IMG/VR virus record: IMGVR_UViG_3300008220_000032
Span: 1-34,702 of that record
DNA from: a virus
Strand: one strand, 5' to 3'
DNA: 34,702 bases
In this document: one piece after another, positions 1,031-3,025 of the stretch
Layout of the letters: each line of letters starts with the position of its first letter
Numbering within the stretch: the first letter of the stretch is position 1
Program-made: the position numbers and the translations under genes
The notes under the pieces: generated by a model
The model's database searches: none
The model's input: only the letters and a program-made list of their open reading frames with translations
Told to the model about the DNA's origin: nothing

Positions 1031-1236
1031 CAGATCACCACCCCAGAGCTTAGGTCGAACGCCTCATCCCTTTGAAACCACCCACTGTTAAAGCCTTCGT
1101 TGTAGGCTTCATGCATGTGCTTGAGAACAGCCGACGGCATCAACGCTACTGGCCCACAGGGCAGAAGAATTACGTAATGCATTTCAGCCGCCCATTGCAC
1201 AAAGGTCTCATCGCTTACCCACATTGCCTCAGTCAT
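1030..1236 (-). CDS. small hypothetical protein (68 aa)
   Basis: I place the start at the ATG at 1236 because it overlaps the methyltransferase stop as ATGA, as nearly all neighbours do; a second in-frame ATG lies four codons later. The product begins MTEAMWVSDETFVQWAAEMH and has no recognised domain. Residues about 40-55 (KHMHEAYNEGFNSGW) resemble short helices found in small phage proteins but give no function. It lies between the cytosine methyltransferase and the resolvase. The three stop/start signals of this junction (frame A stop, frame B stop, this start) fall within 8 bases. Confidence 0.6.
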   Translation of the reverse strand: MTEAMWVSDETFVQWAAEMHYVILLPCGPVALMPSAVLKHMHEAYNEGFNSGWFQRDEAFDLSSGVVI

Positions 1237-2380
1237 CGGTGAGCTCGCTTCCAGAGAAGGCTGAACGCAACTCCGCTTTGTAGCGGACAAACCGCGTTGC
1301 CGAGACTTCGCAATCTGTCCACCCGATTGGCAGTCCCATCAGCGCCTCGACGAACCGCGGGTTCAGCATTAGGGTTTCGCTCGAGGAATCTTCTCCAGCC
1401 TTCTCGGTCGTTTGGTCTTGGGGGGAACAGGGCCAGCGAACGCTGGCCCTTCCTAGCAGTCCATTCGTGGGCACGTTCGCGTTGGCGCAGCTCCCGTCCT
1501 TCCAGTCCCTCGATGTTGGTGTGGGCCATGCCGCTGATGCCACCGTCAAGGGAATTCCCGCCCTTGTCGCGCCTTCTCCCTTGTTCGCGTGATGTCTCCA
1601 CCTGTCGAGCCATGTCTCTGGGCTCTCGCCGTCGTTGCAAATTCTCGCCGCCGGAGTCGGCCAGGTTGTCAGAGCTGCAATGATCAGATCGTTCGGAGAG
1701 CCCTTTCTTCTCAACTCTCTGTTCGCTCCTCGAGTCGTTCGGGTGTTTTTGTCTGCCAGAGCTGCGGTCGAAGTGGGCCATGCTTGAGCCTTTCCGACTA
1801 ACGATGGTCTCGGCTTTGTCTTGTCTCCTTGATCGTAAGTGTATCCTCTCCCCTTCGCGTCGATCGTTGTTGGCGTGGGCCAAGCAGAACCATCGAAGAC
1901 GCCGCATGGGGGCTCCAACGGCTCCCGCCGGGAGCAAACACCAGTTTGCATCGTACCCCATCTCGGAAAGCCCTCCGAGTACGACTCCGGCTCCCATAGA
2001 AAGGATGCCTGCAACGTTTTCCAGGAACACGATTCGCGGTCCCACCTCGCGAATGATGCGGGCAACATCATCCCACAGCCATCGATCGTCGGCTCTGCCT
2101 TTTCGTTTTCCCGCGTGGGACACGGGCTGACAGGGGAATCCGGCAATGATCGAATCCACTTTTCCACGCCAAGCTGTGCCGTCGAAGGTCGTGAGATCGT
2201 CCCAAATAGGCGCCTCATCCAGACTCTTTTCTTCCATCCTGGCCACGAGAGTGGACGCGGCAAAGCCTTCGCGTTCGATGTAACAAACAGTTCGGGCTCC
2301 GGTTGCGAGCTGAAATCCGAGATCGAGCCCTCCGATTCCTGAACAGATTGAAATTGTGCTTTTGGGCAATGCAGCCACAT
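1229..2380 (-). CDS. overprinted second frame inside the methyltransferase gene (WPTPT-repeat protein)
   Basis: An open frame of 383 codons, shifted relative to the methyltransferase and ending four bases beyond it. From about residue 107 it reads like a protein: SFARWDRESCSWKTLQ, then FPRWGTMQTGV, then four spaced repeats (WPTPTTIDAKGRG, WPTSTAALADK, WPTPAARICNDG, WPTPTSRDWKDG), and near the end LNPRFVEALMGLPIGWTD. I recall phage proteins with these WPTPT and LMGFPIGWTD features annotated on their own or as methyltransferase-like; this is memory, not a search. The same bases encode motif VIII and motif X of the methyltransferase in the other frame. The ATG at 2380 has GAGGG about 6 bases upstream. 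The first hundred residues look like a shadow, and translation could start at an internal ATG. Whether it is translated is unproven. Confidence 0.45.
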   Translation of the reverse strand: MWLHCPKAQFQSVQESEGSISDFSSQPEPELFVTSNAKALPRPLSWPGWKKRVWMRRLFGTISRPSTAQLGVEKWIRSLPDSPVSPCPTRENEKAEPTIDGCGMMLPASFARWDRESCSWKTLQASFLWEPESYSEGFPRWGTMQTGVCSRREPLEPPCGVFDGSAWPTPTTIDAKGRGYTYDQGDKTKPRPSLVGKAQAWPTSTAALADKNTRTTRGANRELRRKGSPNDLIIAALTTWPTPAARICNDGESPETWLDRWRHHANKGEGATRAGIPLTVASAAWPTPTSRDWKDGSCANANVPTNGLLGRASVRWPCSPQDQTTEKAGEDSSSETLMLNPRFVEALMGLPIGWTDCEVSATRFVRYKAELRSAFSGSELTDD

Positions 2381-2399
2381 TTGTCTTCCCTCGCTTCAC
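1233..2399 (-). CDS. C5-cytosine DNA methyltransferase (Dcm/M.HhaI type)
   Basis: A 388-residue enzyme that transfers a methyl group from S-adenosylmethionine to carbon 5 of cytosine in DNA. Motif I is SGIGGLDLGF (residues 20-29). Motif IV GFPCQPVSHAGKRKG holds the catalytic Cys at 90. Motif VI FLENVAG is near 125-131, motif VIII RRLRWFCLA near 166-174, and motif X DRLRSLGNAVCP lies close to the C-terminus. The region between VIII and X is unusually arginine-rich, with repeated MAH/LAD phrases. The GTG at 2399 overlaps the QueC stop (GTGA). A downstream GTG at 2378, preceded by GAGGG, is an alternative start that would leave all motifs intact. It probably protects phage DNA from host restriction. 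A second long frame covers nearly all of this gene. Confidence 0.9.
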   Translation of the reverse strand: MKRGKTNVAALPKSTISICSGIGGLDLGFQLATGARTVCYIEREGFAASTLVARMEEKSLDEAPIWDDLTTFDGTAWRGKVDSIIAGFPCQPVSHAGKRKGRADDRWLWDDVARIIREVGPRIVFLENVAGILSMGAGVVLGGLSEMGYDANWCLLPAGAVGAPMRRLRWFCLAHANNDRREGERIHLRSRRQDKAETIVSRKGSSMAHFDRSSGRQKHPNDSRSEQRVEKKGLSERSDHCSSDNLADSGGENLQRRREPRDMARQVETSREQGRRRDKGGNSLDGGISGMAHTNIEGLEGRELRQRERAHEWTARKGQRSLALFPPRPNDREGWRRFLERNPNAEPAVRRGADGTANRVDRLRSLGNAVCPLQSGVAFSLLWKRAHR

Positions 2400-3025
2400 T
2401 TGGTTGCTCTGTTCGTGGCGGCGTCGATATCGCGCATCGTTTGAAAACCTCTTGATCGAACCTTACACGCAAGACAGGACCCACATGCCACAGCCCTTCT
2501 GGTTCGTTCAGATGTGATCCAGTCGGGGTAGTAACAACTCCACGTTTCGTTTTCGGAAATCTCAAAGTCTCGAGCTCGAAATATGATTTCGTTTTTTCTC
2601 ATCTTCAACAACGGAGCAACCACATCCACCTTATATCCCGCCGAAAGCGCCCGTGACATAGAGGACAGAAACGCCTCGCCGCAGTCAGGAAACATATCGA
2701 AGTCTTCTCTTGTTGCACCGAACCAAACGCTCCCGCCGCCACCAGCTGCCGCAATCGCAGCTGCATGGGCGATGAAGATTGCGTTTCGACCTGCCACAAC
2801 CGGACTCGCTCGATCTGCCAAAAGACCGGTGCTGGGCATTGTCAGACGCACCGAATCAAACTCTATCTCTCTCTTTAGACAAAACTTCTCCGCATATTTG
2901 GTTTCGATTGTTTGCGGTTGCCCATAGTCGAAAATCACCGCTCTTGCGTCTGGGTCAATGTCTCTCGCCATCATCATGCAAACGGCGGAATCCAGACCGC
3001 CCGAAAAACAAACCACGATCATCAT
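2396..3025 (-). CDS. queC: QueC-like 7-cyano-7-deazaguanine (preQ0) synthase
   Basis: QueC converts 7-carboxy-7-deazaguanine to preQ0 using ATP and ammonia. The 209-residue protein starts with the PP-loop SGGLDS (residues 8-13). It ends with a zinc site made of C164, C181, C184 and C187 (CGSCLACK), both diagnostic of the family. The motif FGATREDFDMFPDCGEAF matches the substrate region. It is slightly shorter than bacterial QueC (about 220-230). The ATG overlaps the stop of the DpdA-like gene as ATGA, so the two should be co-translated. No FolE, QueD or QueE is in the window, so the earlier precursors presumably come from the host. Together with DpdA this implies deazaguanine insertion into phage DNA rather than tRNA queuosine. 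Confidence 0.92.
   Translation of the reverse strand: MMIVVCFSGGLDSAVCMMMARDIDPDARAVIFDYGQPQTIETKYAEKFCLKREIEFDSVRLTMPSTGLLADRASPVVAGRNAIFIAHAAAIAAAGGGGSVWFGATREDFDMFPDCGEAFLSSMSRALSAGYKVDVVAPLLKMRKNEIIFRARDFEISENETWSCYYPDWITSERTRRAVACGSCLACKVRSRGFQTMRDIDAATNRATK

Follow-up and report, generated by a model that had tools for sequence, protein, structure and literature searches.

Lee, Kam and Shaw (1995) reportedly traced the second chain of the methyltransferase M.EcoHK31I to an overlapping frame of its gene. Enzymes of this kind built from two polypeptides, M.EcoHK31I and M.AquI, are established among the C5-cytosine methyltransferases, and split fragments of others can complement each other (PMC3404938). 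In M.EcoHK31I the large chain holds motifs I-VIII and X and a smaller second chain holds motif IX, while M.AquI has motifs I-VIII in one subunit and keeps motif IX together with the recognition sequence in its partner (PMC3404938).

The window, meaning the whole stretch of 34,702 bases of the virus record analysed here, contains a methyltransferase gene (frame A) that is overprinted along nearly its entire length by a second frame (frame B), +1 relative to the first. Both frames are open and conserved in relatives, the frame under selection switches along the gene, and B has a conserved start and is homologous to the recognition/motif IX region of C5-methyltransferases. A sequence-only reading had described frames of 388 and 383 codons over the same DNA, four WPTPT-like repeats and a LNPRFVEALMGLPIGWTD block in B, and coinciding starts at an ATGTG behind a single GAGGG; all of these are present (Table 1).

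Table 1. Positions of the two frames, their parts and neighbouring features in the window.
Feature	Positions	Strand	Remarks
Frame A	1233-2399	-	C5-cytosine methyltransferase with motifs I-VIII and X joined by a linker; proposed catalytic subunit; 388 aa
Frame B	1229-2380	-	Overprinted on A; proposed to be the target-recognition subunit, with WPTPT modules and motif IX; 383 aa
Catalytic half, motifs I-VIII	1875-2378	-	Frame A mainly under selection; B kept stop-free
Variable region	1380-1882 (end approximate)	-	Selected as frame B; linker in A
WPTPT-like modules of B	at 1882, 1780, 1663, 1528	-	B residues 167, 201, 240, 285
Motif IX-like block of B, LNPRFVEALMGLPIGWTD	1313-1366	-	Overlies EPAVRRGADGTANRVDRL of A; constraint in both frames
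Motif X of A, LGNAVCP	1284-1304	-	Selected as frame A
ATGTG double start	2376-2380	-	ATG of B 2380-2378, GTG of A 2378-2376
GAGGG, Shine-Dalgarno-like	2388-2392	-	7 nt before ATG, 9 nt before GTG
QueC-like 7-deazaguanine gene	2396-3025		Upstream of the methyltransferase; profile match

Frame A matches the profiles PF00145 (1.6e-35) and phrog_363 (1.6e-62). Motifs I, IV (PCQ), VI (ENV), VIII and X of PF00145 are all found in A, with the invariant columns kept. The earlier description of A as a complete set of methyltransferase motifs stands as far as these go, motif X included, but neither a motif IX nor a recognition domain can be recognised in A, and both are located in B. In a profile search frame B matched phrog_1008, a 'DNA methyltransferase' family, at 9.1e-31 over B residues 78-362; against Pfam it matched no family.

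Motifs I-VIII evolve as an ordinary frame A gene, and the WPTPT region evolves only as a frame B gene. Substitutions were counted in ungapped homologous blastn segments, so that no alignment favours either frame; this avoids an alignment bias towards A, and a version of the test aligned on the frame A protein left the sign unchanged in close pairs. At 80–90% identity, differences at A codon positions 1/2/3 number 1066/639/2330 over motifs I-VIII, and 884/288/200 over the variable region. In the variable region of such pairs, A has an NN/SN of 1.20 (unconstrained) and B an NN/NS of 0.19 (strong constraint), the overall ranges being 1.2–1.5 and 0.19–0.32, respectively. The pattern is consistent from segment to segment: at 75–97% identity, position 1 of A exceeds position 3 in 95 of 97 variable segments, and position 3 exceeds position 1 in 128 of 133 catalytic (motifs I-VIII) segments. 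Around motifs IX-X both frames are constrained (0.35 and 0.39). In a finer profile, selection on B falls on its N-terminus (in the group of loci to which the window belongs), the variable region and the LNPLFVEWLMGWP block, and selection on A falls on the catalytic motifs and motif X. Purifying selection acts in both frames, on A in motifs I-VIII and X, on B in the variable region, and on both at the IX block. Over motifs I-VIII, the NN/NS of B is 0.72–0.87 and that of control genes is 0.44–0.81; because the controls are similar, the ratio is not diagnostic there and no strong constraint on B is claimed. Beyond staying open, the N-terminal half of B is only weakly constrained, its first residues excepted. 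The relatives of the window are distant (33–48% identity in A), so the substitution tests describe the family rather than the window itself.

Stop codons give a second view of the overlap. When the A protein was held fixed and its codons permuted, 462 ± 14 stops were expected in B over motifs I-VIII of 172 loci, and 193 are found; the +2 frame of the same region has 1005 where 1006 were expected. A general avoidance of out-of-frame stops is ruled out by 253 flanking ORFs (loci shared), which in their +1 frame have 1865 stops against an expected 1867. With the B protein fixed in the variable region, A has 0 stops against 441 expected, a figure that is conditional, as loci were chosen with A open to motif X. 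For the window alone, synonymous permutation of A predicts 4.6 stops in the +1 frame, and shuffling of B codons in the variable region predicts 4.7 in A; both have 0 (p = 0.005 in each case).

Only frame A queries were used to retrieve related loci, and the sources were viral contigs and bacterial genomes. B is open across the variable region in about 190 of 205 related loci, all with motif X in A. Within the CHFF group (N15/BcepC6B-like) the variable region is open in B at 93/95 loci and in the +2 frame at 0/95, and at the remaining loci the values are 100/110 and 7/110. The earlier suggestion that the overprint may be conserved is borne out by these counts. In nearly all loci the +1 frame is open over most of A and shows WPTP motifs and LNPxFVEWLMGxP, and the +2 frame is closed. 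Several of the exceptions (L004, L005, L202, L218, L225, L246) encode a single-chain enzyme, and their repeats or motif IX are read in frame A. A single-protein scan of viral contigs with B found nothing, and searches of rhizobial genera gave few close pairs. Some loci have individual features. At L003 (1517-3703) B runs without a stop into the downstream ORF, giving an open frame of 729 codons. Komagataeibacter phage phiKX1 (L011) has an HNH-like sequence in the B frame, inserted between motifs IX and X at about 2128-2400, and frame A reads through this insertion. The related Xanthomonas phages PhiXhv-1 (L252) and PhiXhv-5 (L253) have the same WPTPT modules in different order.

The relationships of B are clearest in actinobacterial relatives, some with a single chain and others naturally split, in which LPTPT repeats and motif IX match B and not A. 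In the single-chain enzymes L222, L236 and L246, the repeats and LSPRFVEWLMGL (motif IX) are read in the catalytic frame, and blocks of the LNPRFVEALMGLPIGWTD type are read in-frame in L004, L202, L224 and L225; hhalign also supports the motif IX-like character of this block. By hhalign, B residues ∼167–355 align to the LPTPT/motif IX half of the relatives (E 3.1e-16), and by profile comparison A aligns to the second half of the split relatives only at motif X. When translations of the variable region were compared by blastp with the recognition domains of single-chain enzymes, matches were found in B for 175/202 loci, in A for 21 (which include single-chain enzymes) and in the +2 frame for 2; the variable region of the window matches in B (6.5e-5) and not in A. 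In the AF2 model of A, residues 1–175, mostly with pLDDT above 90, form the large (catalytic) domain of a methyltransferase, with M.HhaI and M.HaeIII as the best Foldseek matches, followed by a disordered linker of 125 residues (192–302 with pLDDT below 50) and then the motif X helix; the model contains no recognition domain. Modelled alone, B has a mean pLDDT of 52, is confident only in its motif IX/C-terminal part, and is too poor for a fold search, as would be expected if the protein depends on a partner or consists of repeats and its alignment is shallow; a profile search of the PDB with B gave chance matches only. Taken together, B most likely carries the DNA-recognition part of the enzyme. 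The WPTPT units recur across phages, at different positions and in both A-type backgrounds, and three units of the window belong to clusters common to both groups. Among coliphage relatives the flanks are ∼94% identical and the middle is replaced. Modules common to unrelated phages suggest a shuffling of recognition units as cassettes, and the WPTPT units behave as exchangeable recognition domains do; they may set specificity.

Frame A could start as early as the GTG at 2399, but it is the GTG within ATGTG that sits behind GAGGG. The sequence ahead of this start site is gcGAGGGaagacaaATGTGG. Across the 45 loci of the window's group, the B start takes the form [AG]TGTGG with the peptide MW[LIV][YHF][VIL]P (W in 45/45, P in 44/45), over bases at which frame A shows no conservation. 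A Shine-Dalgarno-like stretch lies ahead of the B start in 41/45, and in 32/45 an [AG]TG of frame A lies four bases before it (TGAATGTGG). The CHFF group uses a different arrangement, with the B start at an internal ATG ∼30 codons into A, mostly 18, 12 or 20 codons ahead of CHFF. Here AGGAG is restricted to loci that have an ATG 8 nt later (17/45 vs 0/39, Fisher 5e-6). AUGUG sites in Escherichia coli have been shown to initiate both frames (PMC9841429). The ambiguous AUGUG/GUGUG starts described there, in pqiA, tamA and narQ, likewise combine ATGTG with one Shine-Dalgarno sequence for two frames (PMC9841429), whereas the present site has been kept throughout a family of phage genes.

The best explanation, given a probability of roughly 80%, is that the locus would express an active heterodimeric C5-methyltransferase, with the recognition/motif IX subunit overprinted on the catalytic subunit. 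Both proteins would be made from one mRNA at separate starts, that of B being the ATG of ATGTG in the window's group and the internal ATG in the N15/BcepC6B-like group. A would carry the AdoMet and catalytic motifs (I-VIII) and, beyond a long unstructured linker, motif X, and B would contribute motif IX and the WPTPT units as modules for target recognition. The two would bind to give one working methyltransferase, in which B would determine the sequence that is methylated. It would function in the manner of M.EcoHK31I and M.AquI, with recognition placed in the overprinted chain. The likely role would be to shield phage DNA from host restriction. Counting against this explanation, natural splits place motif X with the recognition half, while here it is in A; the poor model of B alone and the distance of the window's relatives also weigh against it.

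A programmed +1 ribosomal frameshift after motif VIII would account for the change of selected frame from A to B at the end of that motif by producing a fusion of A (I-VIII) and B (WPTPT, IX), with no separate start for B, and the presence of both halves in one protein in the single-chain relatives agrees with it. No fixed run of bases that could act as a slippery site was found at the junction, however, and a single +1 shift would lose motif X, to which A stays open. B also remains open over motifs I-VIII (193 vs 462 stops) and begins with a conserved peptide preceded by a Shine-Dalgarno-like sequence, or at an internal ATG. Because motif X is retained in A, and B retains both a start of its own and an N-terminal half that stays open, such a fusion is unlikely. 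Slightly less probable again is that both proteins are made and that B acts outside the methyltransferase, for example at the replication fork or against restriction. The argument for this comes from the C-termini of B proteins, 33/45 of which in the window's group end in QxxLF (QLALF, QLSLF, QHSLF, QADLF; examples are L078:1511-2692, L176:1505-2728 and L021:1511-2659), a tail resembling the peptide that binds the beta sliding clamp. The window lacks this tail, and the recognition/IX part of methyltransferases, which A is missing, has its homologue in the core of B. That B is a non-coding shadow in a GC-rich methyltransferase gene, its motifs recurring because A is conserved, is very improbable: its motifs do overlie conserved motifs of A, and its N-terminal half has an NN/NS near that of control genes, but its modules are homologous to in-frame domains elsewhere and, for the WPTPT/IX part, the codon-phase substitution pattern, with A unconstrained and B strongly constrained in the variable region, refutes it. 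The sequence-only reading had left the choice between dual coding and a shadow frame open, and had looked to stops or a lack of constraint in the relatives as the mark of the latter. Instead, B is open in relatives and is the sole constrained frame in the variable region, which supports dual coding for the WPTPT/motif IX part.

The methyltransferase gene lies within a replication/recombination block. The QueC-like gene ends at the methyltransferase start region, where its stop codon and the GTG at 2399 share bases (GTGA); further upstream are replication-initiation, SSB, RecT and RecE-like genes, and a Holliday junction resolvase is encoded downstream. B ORFs have been annotated before, as phrog_1008 or 'Mte8-like protein', and PhiXhv-5 is annotated in both frames. 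Some deposited records have B as the gene and not the methyltransferase frame, as in Mycobacterium phage XFactor (L008, 1438-2166), L010 (1156-2085) and L011 (1519-2127). In an E. coli 23713 prophage (L362:1129-2298), the annotation has a pair of partial pseudogenes, each named 'DNA cytosine methyltransferase', which may be an artefact of the overprint. Gene callers retain only one of the two frames, and some prophage copies are even broken up into 'partial pseudogenes'. The overlap runs on one strand for nearly 390 codons, selection passes from one frame to the other along it, and it recurs in hundreds of phages and prophages. Should B prove to be the recognition subunit, the search for what gives many phage methyltransferases their specificity has looked at the wrong frame, and a codon-recoded A expressed heterologously would give a dead enzyme. 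The chances seem about even for the broader proposal that a large share of the C5-methyltransferases of phages and prophages now annotated as single proteins are heterodimers, that an overprinted protein built of exchangeable WPTPT modules sets their specificity, and that one branch is tethered to replication through the clamp. The pair is present in the laboratory phages N15 (gene 58), K1G and K1ind3, and so is directly testable.

In the literature searched, no description of the A/B pair as dual coding was found. Among the closest annotated proteins are those of phrog_1008 and the 'putative Mte8-like protein' of K1G-group coliphages, which are of the B type and, in K1G and K1ind3, lie beside an A-type 'C-specific methylase'; they are annotated as hypothetical or as methyltransferases in their own right, and the same literature held no selection test or role for them. 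The split genes of actinophages (Upyo gp54/53 and Float294 gp62/61 of Gordonia; Kingsley gp70/71 and Ovechkin gp69/70 of Mycobacterium) have the catalytic gene first and after it, in the +1 frame, a gene for the LPTPT repeats and motif IX, but the two are adjacent or slightly overlapping rather than overprinted, and the second also has motif X. A monomeric enzyme has its recognition domain and motif IX in one chain with the catalytic motifs, which is not the case for A. M.AquI resembles the present pair in separating motifs I-VIII from the recognition sequence and motif IX, but its beta chain also holds motif X, whereas here motif X is selected in A and the genes overlap over almost their whole length. 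The nearest relative in kind is M.EcoHK31I, compared here by description: as in that enzyme, the large chain contains motifs I-VIII and X, and the second chain contains motif IX. The recognition domain of M.EcoHK31I reportedly belongs to the large chain, while here it is in the overprinted chain and is built of WPTPT units; in addition, B spans nearly all of A, the start site is common to both frames, and the pair is phage-borne and very widespread.
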